Shown here piece by piece: positions 26,316 to 36,026 of a stretch of DNA of 64,000 bases (position 1 is its first letter; the number at the start of each line of letters is the position of its first letter). This stretch comes from Bacteroidales bacterium. GTDB lineage: Bacteria; Bacteroidota; Bacteroidia; Bacteroidales; GCA-2748055. The position numbers and the translations under genes were made by a program. The stretch lies in contig JAOZQY010000014.1 of assembly GCA_029931975.1 (NCBI GenBank), positions 1 through 64,000 on the forward strand, in the 5' to 3' direction. The notes beneath the pieces are model-generated. The model was not told where the DNA came from. It searched no databases and saw only the letters and a list, made by a program, of their open reading frames with translations.

Positions 26316-28661
26316 TTAGTAGTCCTTCGGTATAAAGAAGAATGTTCCATCCTCATCTTCCAGTCCGGAAATTTTTCCGAATTGTGGCTTCTGCTGGGTG
26401 GTATTTTCGACGGCAGTGGTCACCTTCAATACAATATTCTCGATGGGAACACAATTGTTTGGGTTCTCGATCAACATATTAGCAAAGGTCCTGGTAAACT
26501 GACTGTCGTCAACAGCCAGCTCATACCCTGCGGAGGAGAAGACCTGTGAAGATTTGAAACGGGTCGAGCTCCAGTCATCACAATTTCGCTCCTTGATCCC
26601 GGAGCGCATAGCCTGATAAAAACTGGGTCCCGATTCACAGGCATCCGTAATTACCAGTGTATGGGTAAGAAAATCAGGATAGACTTGCATGGCTGCTTTC
26701 AGCGCATTAATATTGTAGTAAGTAAACTCATCATCCCTGGAGGCATCAACAGGAATCCAGTACCCACTTTGATTGATATATTTTCCATGCCCGGCATACC
26801 AGATCAGGAGCGAATTCACCCGGTTGCTCCTGATCATATCCCTTAGCTCAATGGAGAAAAATTTTGAGAGCTCCGCTTTAGACATATTTTTTTTATGAAT
26901 CACATTGTGTATCTGGTAATTTGCCAGTGCAGAGCGCATCATGGATACATCCTTTGAGGGGCCTCCCAGGCTGGCAAATGAATCGTAGTCCGAATTTTCA
27001 ATGAAAATAGCCCAGGTTTTGCCCATGGGATTATCATCAAAGGACTGTGCATCACGATTCAGTTTATACTCGATTTCTGAGCTGTTACCAAATTCGTCTA
27101 CAGCTGTCACAGTGATCCGGCTCTTATTGTTTACACTAACATAAGCTGTGAAACTGGGATTCAGGTCACTGGGAATATAACTGGCCATCACACTGTCGAT
27201 GAAAATTTTGGTTATCCTGCTCTCATCTCTAATTTTTCCTTCCATATAGATCATGGGATCGTTGTTATCAAGGTAGAGAATATTGCTCTCCGAACCATAG
27301 GGAGCTATCATGTTAACAACAGGAGGATCTATTTCAGTACGCCTGATTGGGAAAATTGCAGTCTCTGTATTGCCATAAACATCAGATACCTGCACGGTCA
27401 CCTGATTAGTACTGGTGAGATTTACGCTGGCCAGAAACTTGAATCCCTCCTCAGTTGCTTCTACCGGCACATTGAATCCATTCACTTGCAGTGATTCGAT
27501 ACCACTTTCATCTGTAATCTGGCCCGTTACATTCAGCAAAACGATCTCCTTTGAAACATCAATGGCATTTGCATCATTGGAAGGAGGATCTAACAGCACT
27601 ACCATCGGTTTGTTTTCCTCGCGGTTCAACTCATACATCCGTTGGGTGGCTTCTTCATGCAAACGTTGGGCAGTCCCGTCGAATTTGGACATGGCCAGTA
27701 GTTTTTCGTAATCAGCAAGGGCACCTTCATACTCCCTGATCTCTTCATAGGATCCTCCCCTTTTATAATAAATTTCTGCATTCTCAGGATCCAGCTCAAT
27801 GGCTTTTGAATAATCGATGATGGCGTAGCCGGGCTGATTCATCTTGCTGTTTATATCGCCCCTCAAGATATAAATCAATGGTTCATCGGGAAACTGCACC
27901 GATGCCATAGAGAGCGTCTCACTGGCCTTAAGGAGATTGCCCTGGGCGGATAATACCTGGCTCTGCAAGAGGATCCCCTCAAGATGTCTGGGATCCATCT
28001 GAAGAACCTGATTCACTTCATTCCCGGCAGCTTCATAATTCTCAAGACTATAAAGCAACTGCGCATATGAAAAATGAGTGGCAACCACCCTTCTGTTCTT
28101 CTGTAAAGACCGCCTGTAAGCCTGATCAGCTTCATCATACATCTCAAGCTTTTCATATACCTGAGCCAGCTTGTAATAGGCTCTTTCATCCTCTTTAAGC
28201 TTCAGACACCTCTGCCCATCGCTTAGAGCATCCTCATATTGATCAAGGGCCATATGGACATCGAATCTTGCCAGGTAAGCTTCCAGGAAATTGTTTTTCA
28301 AATCGATGGCCCTGCTTAGCCTTTTGAGTGCAAACTGATGGTTCCCTTCAAGGTGCCATTCACTGCCTGAAAAATAGTAAAGCTCTTCATCCTTCGCATC
28401 GAAAACCAGAGCACGATCGTAATCCTCAGCTGCATTTTTATGATCACCGCTCCTGGAATAGGCAGTGCCTCTTCGTATATAAGCCTTTTCATAATCGGGA
28501 TCCAGCTCTATGGCTTTAGTATATTGGACAATGGCATCTTTGAAATTATTGGCCTTCAAAAAATCGTCTCCCGCTTTATAATACTGTTTGGCCGATTGTG
28601 CCTGAACGGATGCTGCTACAATAAGCAGCAATAGGATCAAAATACGTCTGTTTTTTTTCAT
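26316..28661 (-). CDS. TPR-repeat protein with C-terminal caspase-like (peptidase C14) domain
   Basis: Signal peptide; multiple TPRs; LLIWYAGHGKYINQSGYWIPVDA and LVITDACESGPSFYQ giving a His/Cys dyad. Confidence 0.9.
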   Translation of the reverse strand: MKKNRRILILLLLIVAASVQAQSAKQYYKAGDDFLKANNFKDAIVQYTKAIELDPDYEKAYIRRGTAYSRSGDHKNAAEDYDRALVFDAKDEELYYFSGSEWHLEGNHQFALKRLSRAIDLKNNFLEAYLARFDVHMALDQYEDALSDGQRCLKLKEDERAYYKLAQVYEKLEMYDEADQAYRRSLQKNRRVVATHFSYAQLLYSLENYEAAGNEVNQVLQMDPRHLEGILLQSQVLSAQGNLLKASETLSMASVQFPDEPLIYILRGDINSKMNQPGYAIIDYSKAIELDPENAEIYYKRGGSYEEIREYEGALADYEKLLAMSKFDGTAQRLHEEATQRMYELNREENKPMVVLLDPPSNDANAIDVSKEIVLLNVTGQITDESGIESLQVNGFNVPVEATEEGFKFLASVNLTSTNQVTVQVSDVYGNTETAIFPIRRTEIDPPVVNMIAPYGSESNILYLDNNDPMIYMEGKIRDESRITKIFIDSVMASYIPSDLNPSFTAYVSVNNKSRITVTAVDEFGNSSEIEYKLNRDAQSFDDNPMGKTWAIFIENSDYDSFASLGGPSKDVSMMRSALANYQIHNVIHKKNMSKAELSKFFSIELRDMIRSNRVNSLLIWYAGHGKYINQSGYWIPVDASRDDEFTYYNINALKAAMQVYPDFLTHTLVITDACESGPSFYQAMRSGIKERNCDDWSSTRFKSSQVFSSAGYELAVDDSQFTRTFANMLIENPNNCVPIENIVLKVTTAVENTTQQKPQFGKISGLEDEDGTFFFIPKDY

Positions 28662-31269: not shown

Positions 31270-32359
31270 ATGATTACAACTGACCAGATCAAAGATCTCA
31301 GCAGGCGCCTGGATGCGTTAAGGAGGCATCTTTGACGTGGATGGCCTAAGCATCCAGATAGAGGAAAAGGAACAAAATACCCACGATCCGGATTTCTGGA
31401 ACGATCCCAAATCTGCAGAAGAACAACTGAAGAAAATTGCCCGGCTCAAAAGCTGGGTGAATGGCTATAATGATGTCAAAACTGCTGTTGATGACCTTAA
31501 TGTGCTATCCGAATTTCTCGAAACTGGCGAATCCTCCGAAGAGGAAGTTACCGCCCAATACACTGAAGCCCTCTCGCTTACCGAAGCCCTGGAATCCAAA
31601 AACATGCTTCAAAATGAGGAGGACAGTCTGGGCGCCATCCTGAAAATCAATTCCGGAGCCGGTGGCACCGAAAGCCAGGACTGGGCAGAAATGTTGATGC
31701 GCATGTACCTCAGATACGGGGAAAAACACAGCTACAAGATCAAAGAACTCCACATGGTCCAGGGAGACGAGGCCGGTATCAAGTCTGTCACCCTTGAATT
31801 CAGCGGCGATTATGCCTACGGCTTCCTGAAAAGCGAATCCGGGGTTCACCGCCTGGTGCGCCTCTCTCCTTTTGATTCTGCCAACCGGAGGCATACTTCT
31901 TTTGCCTCCATATTTGTAACCCCTGTCATTGACGAATCCATAGACATTGTGGTGAACCCGGCCGATATCGAATGGGACACTTTCCGGTCGGGCGGGGCCG
32001 GCGGTCAGAATGTAAACAAAGTGGAAACCGGGGTACGCGTACGCCATCTTCCCACCGGCATTACCGTGGACAATACCGAAACCCGTTCACAGCATAAGAA
32101 CCGGGAAAATGCCATGCGCATTCTGAAATCGCACCTCTACGAAATAGAACTTCAGAAAAAACGGGAAAAACAGGCCGCAGTAGAGGGCAGCAAGATGAAA
32201 ATCGAATGGGGCTCCCAGATCCGAAACTATGTACTTCACCCCTACAAACTGGTAAAGGACCTGCGCACCAACCTTGAAACCGGAAATGTCCAGGCAGTTT
32301 TGGACGGCGACCTGGATGATTTCATTAAAGCCTTTCTGATGGAGTTTGGCGGGAAATAG
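31270..32359 (+). CDS. prfB: Peptide chain release factor 2, programmed +1 frameshift at CTT TGA C (31330-31336)
   Basis: ORF1 [21 protein letters not shown] ends at TGA 31333-31335; +1 shift continues [14 protein letters not shown]...; [16 protein letters not shown] catalytic motif; AGGAGG upstream of shift site. Confidence 0.95.
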
Positions 32360-32428: not shown

Positions 32429-32932
32429 TCAGGTGAAGATAATCTGTGTATTATCTCCTCCACACTTTCCATAGAAATCACCAATGGTAAGTACACCCTT
32501 CACTTCTTCATGAAGATCTTCTTTTTCAAGCTTGAACATATCCATGGCCAGTTTACAGGCATAAATCTCTCCGCCTCCGGCTGTAATCATCTCCAGGAAC
32601 TCATCCACAGGCGGTATATCAAGTTTGTACATCTGGCTTTTCATCATAGCCGATACACCAGCTTCAACACCTGGAATCATGCCCAGAATAGTTGGGAAGG
32701 GCAAGCCTCCCGGTGCCCTCATGGCAGGATTTCCAACTGTGGCGGTCTTGATCCGCTTCATCTGCTTTTTGGTAATGGCATCCAGGCCAAAAAAGGTAAA
32801 GAATACCTTGGCCTCCATTCCTTCCATCACGGCACCATTGGCCATGACCAGTGTGGCATATACATCTTCAATGGTGCCCTTGGCACAAATGATGCATACC
32901 TTTTTTAACGGGCTCTCATTTGTTGTTGACAT
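32429..32932 (-). CDS. DsrE/DsrF-like family protein
   Basis: KKVCIICAKGTIEDVYATLVMANGAVMEGMEAKVFFTFFGL; conserved Cys in GGEIYACKLAMDMF. Confidence 0.85.
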   Translation of the reverse strand: MSTTNESPLKKVCIICAKGTIEDVYATLVMANGAVMEGMEAKVFFTFFGLDAITKKQMKRIKTATVGNPAMRAPGGLPFPTILGMIPGVEAGVSAMMKSQMYKLDIPPVDEFLEMITAGGGEIYACKLAMDMFKLEKEDLHEEVKGVLTIGDFYGKCGGDNTQIIFT

Positions 32933-32949: not shown

Positions 32950-33261
32950 TTAAATACAACTTGCCGGTTTGGGAATTCCCGCAAACTTCGAGGAAAACTT
33001 CAGAGGTCCGCCTGGGAATAACTGGTACAATCCTTTGATATCCACGATTCCTGACTTACCAACCCTTCTGATGGTAAGGGTCTCCCCTTTTTCATTTGCC
33101 GCACGGAGAAACTCCAGTACCTCAAAATGCTTATCGGTGAGATCAATTCCATCCTCTTTAGCCAATTCGCTTGCAATCTCTTTGTTCCACTGTGAAGCAT
33201 CTGTCATGTAGCCTTCCTCATTCACTTCAACAGCTTGTCCTGCATAGGTTTTTGTTGCCAT
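32950..33261 (-). CDS. TusE/DsrC/DsvC family sulfur relay protein
   Basis: EVNEEGYMTDASQWNKEIASELAKEDGIDLTDKHFEVLEFLR...LFPGGPLKFSSKFAGIPKPASCI. Confidence 0.92.
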   Translation of the reverse strand: MATKTYAGQAVEVNEEGYMTDASQWNKEIASELAKEDGIDLTDKHFEVLEFLRAANEKGETLTIRRVGKSGIVDIKGLYQLFPGGPLKFSSKFAGIPKPASCI

Positions 33262-33284: not shown

Positions 33285-33947
33285 TTATTGATTCTTACTC
33301 ATGTTCTTTAAAAATGTGAAAAGGAAACCCCATGCCTTTTTCATCTCTGGTTTGTTGATTTCCCGCATCACTCTGAAAATAGAATATTCAGGGACATTCC
33401 CGGTCTCCATGTTTCCAAATACCTTCACCGCATTGTCGATGGATTTAAGCATTTCAGGCTGTGTCAGGTTCTTAACTGTATCCAGAATAGTTACCACATT
33501 GTCGGCAAGCATGCGAACATCATTAATCCCATAATGAGTGACGATATTGTCAACGATGGCTCCGAACTCTTTCAGAAATTCAAAATAACCCTTCTGCTCA
33601 AATTCATGCAGTTTCTTTGTGCCATCGATAATCACCTCGTTGGCAATGGGGCCCACATCCTGCATCAGGTCCATCACACTTCCCAGGGTATCGAGCATGG
33701 TATTGAAATTGCCCACGTTCTGGGCAAACCTGATGCCCAGTTCCCTGAGATCATCGGGCTCCAGCCTGACTTCACGATCATCCAGTGCCTGTACTGTGGA
33801 ATCATAAACGTCTTTACCGATAATGGAGGCATCGGCAATCAGGTCATCTATGGCCTGGGACTTTAACCTCTGCTGGTTCACATATTCAAGGATCGTGTCG
33901 ACCTTCTGGTTCAACTCGGCGATCTCGTTTGGTCTGTTCTCTTCCAT
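33285..33947 (-). CDS. DUF1641-like protein
   Basis: ORF of 220 aa in SQR-linked context; DDLRELGIRFAQNVGNFNTMLDTLGSVMDLMQDVGPIANEVI and AFGNMETGNVPEYSIFRVMREINKPEMKKAWGFLF-type C-terminus. Confidence 0.7.
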   Translation of the reverse strand: MEENRPNEIAELNQKVDTILEYVNQQRLKSQAIDDLIADASIIGKDVYDSTVQALDDREVRLEPDDLRELGIRFAQNVGNFNTMLDTLGSVMDLMQDVGPIANEVIIDGTKKLHEFEQKGYFEFLKEFGAIVDNIVTHYGINDVRMLADNVVTILDTVKNLTQPEMLKSIDNAVKVFGNMETGNVPEYSIFRVMREINKPEMKKAWGFLFTFLKNMSKNQ

Positions 33948-33958
33948 GGTGCTTAGGC

Positions 33959-35197
33959 TTAATCTATATCATTCTTTTTCCCGGCCATGGTCATATGGGC
34001 CTCAATGGGCATCTCTTTGCCTCTCAATAGGATATGCCAGTAGATCCAACGGAATACCATCTTTCCGTAATGGTTGATCTTGGTGTTTTTCAGTAAACCA
34101 AAAGGCCCGATTCCGGGTAAGGGGAAGGTTCCGGGTAAGGGCTCGGTGTAATAATTGAAATCTATCAATGCTCCTTTTCCATAACCAGTTTCAATGTAAC
34201 AGTTGGCATGGCCGTCAAATTTGGCTGTCATTGGCCTGTTCTCCATGGCATTCATCATGTTCTCAAAAAGAATCTCGGACGCAAAGTGCGCCACCGAACC
34301 AGCCTTGGAAGTTGGAAGATTTGCTGCATCACCCAGCACAAAGATGTTTTCAAATTTCTTTGACTGCATGGTTTCTTTGTCTGTCTCCACATAATTCATA
34401 TCATCGCCCAGTCCACTACGCTCGACCATAGCAGATCCCATATTCACCGGAACAATGGTCAGCACATCAAAAGGAATCTCCACCTCATCGTAGGACTTGA
34501 TCACCTTCTTTTCATTATCGACGCTCTCCAGGTAAAATTCGGGGACTACCCTGATGTTCTTTTCATCCATAAGCTGGCTTAGCATCCTAGTTGCAATGGG
34601 CTTTGTGAAGGCTCCGGGAAGAGGAGTGACATACGTGATATCCACCTTGTCCCGCATCCCTTTTTCAGTAAAGTAGGCCTCAGCCAGGCACACAAATTCA
34701 ATGGGCGCCACCGGGCACTTAAACGGGAGCTCGGAAATACATAAGACCAGTTTCCCGCCTTCCCAGGTTTTAAAAAAATTCTGCAAAGCAACTGCTCCCT
34801 CAACGGTATAAAAATCGAAAATGCTTTTATACCACTCTGCTCCCTGGAGCCCCGGGGTCTCATCCGGACAGGTCTGAGTACCGGTGGCAATAATCAGGAA
34901 GTCATACTTCAAACTGGAGCCATCCATCAGATGCACCCTGTTCTCTTCTCCCTCCACCCGGTCAATCTCCTGGTAAATCACCTTTACACCGGCAGGAAAG
35001 AAATCACCCTTTGGCTTAATCACATCCGATTTCTTATAGATGCCAAAGGGGATAAACAGAAATCCCGGCTGATAATAGTGGGTCTTGTGCTGATCCACAA
35101 TAGTTATTTCCCACTCCTGTCGATCAAGGGCTTTAAAGAGCTTATTGGCCATCATGGTTCCTGCCGTACCACCACCAAGTATTAAAATCTTTTTCAT
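33959..35197 (-). CDS. FAD-dependent oxidoreductase, sulfide:quinone oxidoreductase-like
   Basis: ILGGGTAGTMMANKL FAD-binding motif, IIATGTQTCPDETPG, LPFKCPVAPIEF, IFVLGDAANLPTSKAG. Confidence 0.85.
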   Translation of the reverse strand: MKKILILGGGTAGTMMANKLFKALDRQEWEITIVDQHKTHYYQPGFLFIPFGIYKKSDVIKPKGDFFPAGVKVIYQEIDRVEGEENRVHLMDGSSLKYDFLIIATGTQTCPDETPGLQGAEWYKSIFDFYTVEGAVALQNFFKTWEGGKLVLCISELPFKCPVAPIEFVCLAEAYFTEKGMRDKVDITYVTPLPGAFTKPIATRMLSQLMDEKNIRVVPEFYLESVDNEKKVIKSYDEVEIPFDVLTIVPVNMGSAMVERSGLGDDMNYVETDKETMQSKKFENIFVLGDAANLPTSKAGSVAHFASEILFENMMNAMENRPMTAKFDGHANCYIETGYGKGALIDFNYYTEPLPGTFPLPGIGPFGLLKNTKINHYGKMVFRWIYWHILLRGKEMPIEAHMTMAGKKNDID

Positions 35198-35231: not shown

Positions 35232-35265
35232 CAAAAATAGCAGGAGATATATTGCGTTATCCAAA
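35232..35265 (-). promoter_or_regulatory. Candidate promoter for the SQR/DUF1641/DsrC/DsrE cluster
   Basis: On minus strand: TTTG (35265-35262), 22 nt, TATTTTTG (35239-35232) matching TAnnTTTG. Confidence 0.6.
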
Positions 35266-35272
35266 TCACGAT

Positions 35273-35303
35273 ATGATAATTATCATGACATGACAACTAT
35301 CAT
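35273..35303. promoter_or_regulatory. Two tandem FNR/CRP-type operator candidates
   Basis: ATGATAATTATCAT (35273-35286, perfect palindrome) and ATGACAACTATCAT (35290-35303), centres 17 bp apart, between divergent SQR and Crp/Fnr genes. Confidence 0.65.
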
Positions 35304-35339
35304 ATCAGCGCATGTTAATCAGCACTTAATTTAGGCTTC

Positions 35340-36026
35340 ATGGATCCAGGTTGTACATGTGAACTTTGTGAACTCAAGGAACTCTTCTTTCTGAACCTGA
35401 ATGCTGAAAATGCAAACTTGATATGTTCGGGTAAAATTGAAAAAACTTTCAGCCAGGGAGAGGTTATTCTAAAGGAAGGAACCATGATCCAGGAATTCAC
35501 CTACCTGAAAAGCGGCTTGGTGAAACTCTTCAGAAGGGATCCTTCAGGCAGGGAGCAGATTATCACCATTGCCAGACCCATGGATTATGTGAGCCTGCTA
35601 AGTGTGTTTTCCGGGAAACTATATAATTACTCCGTATCAGCCCTGGAAGACTCAGTGACCTGCAACCTGAAAATGGAAGATATCAGAACCCTGGCAAATT
35701 CGAATGGAAAACTGGCCTTTAACCTGCTCCAAAAAATGAGTGCCATTGCAGATACCATTATCCTGGAATCCCTGGAGATCCGGAAAAAGAATCTAAAAGG
35801 CAGGGTGGCTTACCTTTTGATCTATTTCTCACGGACCATTTTCTTTTCCGAAGAATTCGATCTCCCTCTAAGCAGGAAAGAAATGGCCGATTATGTGGGC
35901 ATGACCACCGAAAATGTGATCCGGACTTTAAGTGAGTTCCGCAAGGACGGTATTCTGAAGATTTATGGAAAAACAATCCAAATTGCCAATATGGACATGC
36001 TTCAATCCATATCAGATTTCGGATAA
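35340..36026 (+). CDS. Crp/Fnr family transcriptional regulator
   Basis: Cyclic-nucleotide-binding fold region and HTH DYVGMTTENVIRTLSEFRKDGIL; Cys at 5, 7, 10, 29, 108. Confidence 0.92.
   Translation: MDPGCTCELCELKELFFLNLNAENANLICSGKIEKTFSQGEVILKEGTMIQEFTYLKSGLVKLFRRDPSGREQIITIARPMDYVSLLSVFSGKLYNYSVSALEDSVTCNLKMEDIRTLANSNGKLAFNLLQKMSAIADTIILESLEIRKKNLKGRVAYLLIYFSRTIFFSEEFDLPLSRKEMADYVGMTTENVIRTLSEFRKDGILKIYGKTIQIANMDMLQSISDFG

Follow-up and report, generated by a model that had tools for sequence, protein, structure and literature searches.

A paired, conserved box upstream of sulfide:quinone reductase in Bacteroidales is the probable operator of a divergently encoded Crp/Fnr-family regulator

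The intergenic region between a gene for type III sulfide:quinone reductase (SQR) and a divergent Crp/Fnr-family gene carries two boxes that would form a dedicated operator of the divergently encoded regulator. The region lies in the window, the whole 64,000-nucleotide stretch of Bacteroidales DNA that was analysed. We consider it likely that paired dimers of this regulator bind the boxes, activate the SQR cluster, and sense sulfide-derived sulfur or redox via cysteines. In this model two dimers, interlocked and spaced by 17 bp or about 1.6 helical turns, would occupy positions of about -52.5 and -69.5. They would thereby activate the promoter of SQR-DUF1641-DsrC-DsrE2, where a TAnnTTTG -7 element is present and no -33 element is conserved. 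The proximal box would be essential and the distal box auxiliary. Five conserved cysteines (C5, C7, C10, C29 and C108) probably respond to sulfide-derived sulfane sulfur or to the accompanying redox state, and sulfide oxidation would be switched on when sulfide is present. Comparison of related loci shows the operator, its spacing, the promoter geometry, the pairing with regulator type and the nearly exclusive use of a single target; from these we infer that the protein physically binds, that it does so cooperatively, that it activates and does not repress, and what it senses.

The target operon is on the minus strand. Its first gene encodes the type III SQR (33959-35197; NF049943, E 2.4e-192), followed by genes for a DUF1641 protein (33285-33947; a weak match to PF07849, backed by linkage across loci), a DsrC/TusE-like sulfur relay protein (32950-33261; profile matches) and a DsrE2-like sulfur carrier protein (32429-32932; above the Pfam cut-off and below the NCBIfam cut-off). 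The SQR scores above the cut-off of the NCBIfam type III SQR model, which is described as the selenoprotein subtype, yet its gene contains no in-frame TGA. The regulator, a protein of 228 aa with the recognition helix TTENVIRTL, is encoded on the plus strand (35340-36026), and a TetR gene and an apparent ABC transporter follow on the same strand.

Box 1, the SQR-proximal operator ATGATAATTATCAT (35273-35286, centre 35279.5; 16-bp form TATGATAATTATCATG, 35272-35287), is a perfect palindrome. Box 2, the distal operator ATGACAACTATCAT (35290-35303; 16-bp form CATGACAACTATCATA, 35289-35304), differs from box 1 at two bases, one of which falls within the TGAT core, and its centre lies 17 bp from that of box 1. 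A larger repeat, consisting of GATATGATA (35270-35278) and TATCATATC (35298-35306), covers both boxes, and the two can be read as a composite symmetric operator (35270-35306) with no strand of its own. The first-pass annotation had described the positions of the boxes, the palindrome, the core change, the 17-bp distance and the larger repeat, and each of these was found exactly so in the sequence. Shuffling of the window gave 2.4 occurrences of TGATN4ATCA, against a single occurrence in the actual window. A single box by itself is therefore not significant, significance on that basis was rejected, and the case for the boxes rests on comparison. Only one further site in the 4.76-Mb genome matched ATGATAATTATCAT with at most one mismatch; it straddles the start of an open reading frame and has neither a partner at 17 bp nor a -7 element at 40.5 or 41.5 bp. 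As a pair with this spacing, the boxes are found at a single place in the genome and in 0/397 other genomes sampled from the phylum, a sample that by chance included no other members of the genus.

Twelve other members of the genus were found to have the regulator, at 68-80% identity (family search). The regulator is divergent to SQR in all 13 readable genus loci, and both boxes and their 17-bp spacing were kept in 13/13 intergenic regions. Most of the surrounding sequence and the length of these regions have diverged, except for the -7 element and a third dyad. Five genus genomes that lack the regulator (58-82% complete) also lack SQR. An order-wide search found a regulator match at E <= 1e-38, paralogs included, in 61 of 295 genomes, and 80 named loci were added from GTDB (Prolixibacteraceae, Draconibacterium, Labilibacter, Carboxylicivirga, Salinivirgaceae and others). 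This gave a comparison set of 71 distinct Crp-SQR intergenic regions, or 43 loci after removal of redundancy; these loci are related by descent, and locus counts do not represent independent events. The ATG nearest to the alignment served as start codon. The score matrix was derived from the same loci, but it enters neither the counts against the consensus nor the spacing profile, the -7 geometry or the controls with ANVIR and replaced regulators.

Conservation of the motif upstream of orthologous clusters had been named as a check on the boxes, and a TATGATAnnTATCATA box was present in 71/71 distinct regions. The best match to the bare consensus reached at least 11/14 in all 43 non-redundant loci, compared to a mean of 9.4 in shuffled sequences, 9% of which reached 11 or more. 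A second box at exactly 17 bp was found in 63 of the 71 regions. Among the non-redundant loci, 35 of 43 had a partner of at least 10/14 at exactly 17 bp, against 0-4 loci for any different spacing in the range of 12-39 bp. The outer half-sites (TATGATA/TATCATA) were better conserved than the inner ones (6.6-6.7/7 vs 5.5-5.8/7; Wilcoxon p = 1.8e-8 for 63 paired loci, with shared ancestry uncorrected), as would be expected for one symmetric composite site. In six loci with a single box (L046, L047, L051, L053, L057 and L060) it is the proximal box that was retained, at 40.5 or 41.5 bp. Two boxes lie 156 bp apart in L043, with the SQR-side box at 41.5 bp, and L048 has a pair spaced 18 bp with a degenerate proximal box. 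By this comparative evidence the operator appears real, strongly conserved and paired. That the boxes are chance AT-rich palindromes would agree with the 2.4 expected occurrences per window, but the pair, its spacing and its promoter distance are conserved over at least 43 non-redundant loci and are common to dozens of related genera, which effectively refutes this explanation. Separately, loci L016 and L085 show, in the same family, a regulator of 56% identity; a short repeat AGTAACCAGCAAG lies upstream and reaches near the contig end, and SQR is beyond reach.

The distance to the SQR promoter is constrained as well. The -7 element TATTTTTG (TAnnTTTG) is on the minus strand at 35232-35239, where the plus strand reads CAAAAATA, and it was kept both in the genus and at the same distance across the order. 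In the window, 40.5 bp separate the centre of box 1 from the first T of this element. Across loci, the centre of the SQR-proximal box lies 40.5 or 41.5 bp upstream of that T, with an exact TAnnTTTG in 42/71 regions and one mismatch, often TAnnTTTA, in another 24/71 (66/71 together). Exact TAnnTTTG occurs only 46 times in all 12,124 positions of the 71 regions. In five loci no good -7 element stood at this distance: the boxes of L043 and L048 are rearranged, while L080, L083 and L109 offer no evident cause. The first-pass annotation had read a TTTG-N22-TATTTTTG promoter into the SQR cluster. The sequence is as it was given, with CAAA (minus-strand TTTG) at 35262-35265 and CAAAAATA at 35232-35239, and its TAnnTTTG part is conserved; the -33 TTTG was not conserved in the 13-locus genus alignment and is therefore probably a chance match. 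The SQR promoter thus resembles those of the Bacteroidota primary sigma factor in its -7 element, but differs from them in having no conserved -33 TTTG, as expected if an activator takes its place.

In the transcriptome of Flavobacterium psychrophilum, TAnnTTTG spans -12 to -5 (PMC9723704). With this flavobacterial assignment, SQR transcription would start at about 35227, and boxes 1 and 2 would therefore be centred near -52.5 and -69.5. Such a geometry, if true, falls outside the classical classes of Crp/Fnr activation. The classical positions are -61.5 for class I and -41.5 for class II, and about -52 is neither, which counts against activation, although the -12 assignment is a flavobacterial one.

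Several lines of comparison indicate which protein uses the boxes. The regulator is divergent to SQR in most loci across the order whose regulator has the recognition helix ENVIR. Where the upstream sequence was 431 bp or longer, the box was present for 86 of 87 ENVIR regulators and for 0/22 ANVIR paralogs (some loci were counted twice, as they were fetched from two collections). The contact Glu is replaced by Ala in the ANVIR group, which neighbours PHP-domain-like and other unrelated genes. The ANVIR loci (L086, L088, L090, L097, L101, L113, L115, L118, L122, L123, L126-L130 and L135-L141) share a conserved neighbourhood unrelated to SQR, and in many of them an ATG is missing where the gene should begin. 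In the sole ENVIR exception, L042, the regulator is convergent, lies downstream of the operon and has no box of its own. From the known geometry we predicted beforehand that the pair would be found at the SQR promoter of this locus; reading the locus further (L192) revealed TATGACAATTATCACT and TATGATAAATATCATA 17 bp apart, the proximal one at 40.5 bp from a -7 element.

Of 160 genomes of the order that lack the regulator, 10 have SQR, which in G572 is present only as two contig-end fragments, and none of those regulator-less SQR loci with a readable promoter had a TATGATA-type box. In L173 and L175, another Crp/Fnr gene is divergent to SQR; its product is 33-35% identical and has the helix MENAVR, and the box is ATTGATATRTATCAAT, located 62.5 bp from the -7 element, a shift outwards by 22 bp or roughly two turns of the helix. 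ATTGATATRTATCAAT was also found in L179, at 63.5 bp from the -7 element, with no regulator in view. L174 has a regulator of the L173/L175 kind but no clean box. L172, L177, L178 and L180, as well as L176 with 165 bp available, have neither this kind of regulator nor a box. A third kind of Crp/Fnr gene lies beside SQR in L182, with the box TGTGATATACATCACA and several -7 candidates. Judging from L173, L175 and L182, replacement of the regulator appears to go together with replacement of the box.

The box thus follows the recognition helix, survives relocation of the regulator, changes when the regulator is replaced, and recurs at a second operon described below; the adjacent regulator therefore very probably binds the boxes and controls the SQR cluster. 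This agrees with the first-pass annotation, which had named the adjacent regulator as the likely binder and the SQR cluster as its target, and the pair with its 40.5/41.5-bp geometry to the SQR -7 element across loci points to the same target. A global FNR-type oxygen or redox regulator could instead bind the boxes, with the adjacent gene there by accident. The genome has several Crp/Fnr paralogs (8 matches in G000) and TGATN4ATCA resembles an FNR box, but the association of the box with the adjacent regulator type, its change upon regulator replacement, its absence from SQR loci without the regulator, and the rarity and lack of geometry of single copies elsewhere make this explanation improbable.

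The boxes had also been thought to control the regulator gene itself. In the window, box 2 is about 43 bp from the regulator ATG and would overlap a regulator promoter, and several loci have a regulator-side TAnnTTTG at 6-26 bp from box 2; self-regulation in the window is possible. As a conserved feature it did not hold up: the distance from box to regulator ATG varies from 3 to 393 bp, in contrast to the fixed distance to the SQR -7 element, and L192 has the pair at SQR and none at the relocated regulator. That autoregulation is the conserved function of the boxes, and any effect on SQR incidental, is therefore highly improbable. The third dyad, ATGTTAATCAGCAC (also ATGTTRAYCARCAY; 35312-35325, no strand), is on the regulator side of box 2, at a distance of 22 bp from it and ahead of the regulator start. 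It was kept in 13/13 genus loci versus 1/58 outside the genus, with matched changes in two genus loci, where TGCT is paired with AGCA. It is possibly the regulator's own promoter or operator. As part of the operator it was left out of the core model, given its presence in only 1/58 loci outside the genus.

Binding by the adjacent regulator leaves the direction of control to be considered. The regulator could repress SQR from the paired operator until sulfide releases it, in the manner of SqrR/BigR. Repression is common among local divergent regulators and can make use of paired operators, and SqrR and BigR, which are well known to regulate SQR, act as repressors (PMC12170894). However, the boxes, at about -52.5 and -69.5, do not cover the core promoter but are upstream of it, and the SQR promoter has no conserved -33 element. 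Moreover, the spacing between box and -7 element varies by no more than 1 bp, and the box of the alternative regulator is displaced outwards by about two turns and so keeps the same helical face; both are what an upstream contact with RNA polymerase would demand. Repression therefore seems rather unlikely, and judged from box position alone the regulator is most likely an activator of SQR.

Membership of the regulator in the Crp/Fnr superfamily is supported by matches to cNMP_binding (PF00027, E 2.3e-17) and HTH_Crp (PF13545, E 1e-16). Its predicted structure (AlphaFold, mean pLDDT 84.7) matched FNR and CRP structures with a Foldseek probability of 1.00, the best PDB matches being holo-FNR; the N-terminal 10 residues of the model score below 50, so that the cysteine geometry is unreadable. 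The recognition helix is E-N-V-I-R in 90 orthologous loci. C5, C7, C10, C29 and C108 were invariant in an alignment of 61 sequences; C5 and C29 are absent together in L053 and L060, both of which retain a box. Like FNR of E. coli and Aliivibrio fischeri, the regulator has the Crp/Fnr fold, a 10-bp half-site spacing and the recognition Glu and Arg, and its C7, C10 and C108 align with FNR C20, C23 and C122. Only three of the four FNR ligands (C20, C23, C29 and C122) are matched, since the window protein has Phe at the position of FNR C29. A fourth Fe-S ligand could be supplied by one of the other conserved cysteines, and the cysteines would be compatible with either an Fe-S cluster or a thiol/persulfide switch. 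The regulator further differs from FNR in its extra C5 and C29 and in Ile in place of Ser212. FNR combines a helix E-x-x-S-R with the operator TTGATN4ATCAA, while here the helix is E-N-V-I-R and the operator TATGATAnnTATCATA, a TATGATA-type box paired at 17 bp that apparently serves one dedicated operon instead of a global regulon. Scores were also far below the cut-offs of the curated models (76.8 bits against 228 for the NCBIfam Fnr model, and 66-67 bits against 300 for FixK and FnrL). Because the cysteine set and the box differ, the regulator appears FNR-like but not FNR, and the designation of the boxes as FNR/FixK-type in the first-pass annotation was not borne out.

The 16-bp box was searched in 35 genomes. 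Among the zero-mismatch matches listed, all but one (G506) lie at the SQR locus. Ten single copies elsewhere, in seven genomes and mostly with one mismatch, have neither a partner nor a -7 element at 40.5 or 41.5 bp, and most are inside genes or far from a start. A wider regulon was rejected on the basis of these ten sampled copies. With so few single copies outside this locus, and with the pair and the -7 geometry absent from those sampled, the regulator looks dedicated to one operon.

In L094 and L121, an ENVIR regulator is divergent to a PhsA/PsrA-like (thiosulfate/polysulfide-reductase-like) operon, which in L121 comprises a PhsA-like protein, an FeS protein, NrfD, two YeeE/TsuA-type sulfur transport proteins and a rhodanese. 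The 17-bp pair is present in both, with the -7 element at 41.5 bp (L094) and 40.5 bp (L121). As in known sulfide-responsive SQR regulators, the regulator is linked and dedicated to sulfide-oxidation genes, with this second sulfur operon in L094 and L121. Two kinds of sulfur operon as targets would favour a sulfur-related signal; that this signal is sulfide/persulfide or redox is inferred only, with the conserved cysteines as the indication of it. We tentatively suggest that these proteins may form a previously undescribed, order-wide class of sulfide/persulfide-sensing Crp/Fnr activators, with the non-FNR cysteine set C-x-C-x2-C, C29 and C108, bound as 17-bp interlocked dimers at about -52.5 and -69.5, and movable as a whole to other sulfur operons, a proposal we consider less likely than not.

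SqrR, BigR and YgaV (ArsR family) and FisR (a sigma-54 activator) are likewise local, cysteine-bearing regulators of sulfide-oxidation genes (PMC12170894). They belong to unrelated protein families and use different operators, and the box position of the regulator described here suggests activation, in contrast to the repressors SqrR and BigR. Our searches of the open-access literature found no Crp/Fnr regulator of a Bacteroidota SQR, which is weak evidence of absence as the searches partly used strict phrases, and nothing on a 17-bp spacing of tandem FNR sites. The box, its 17-bp pair and the 40.5/41.5 bp to the -7 element would amount to a precise regulatory rule for sulfide oxidation that covers many Bacteroidales families, including sediment and vent groups, for which the open-access searches turned up no described SQR regulator. 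The change of the recognition Glu to Ala, and regulator replacement with box replacement, would offer natural experiments on Crp/Fnr specificity. The geometry would also bear on the activator positions permitted at promoters of the unusual Bacteroidota sigma factor.

Two further features were observed in the window. The prfB gene (RF2, 31270-32359) has a classical programmed +1 frameshift, with an ATG at 31270, the sequence AGGAGG CAT CTT TGA C and a main frame that opens at 31337; Bacteroidota are a phylum otherwise without Shine-Dalgarno sequences, which makes this case notable. On the minus strand, 26316-28661 encodes a TPR-repeat protein with a C-terminal caspase domain (Peptidase_C14).
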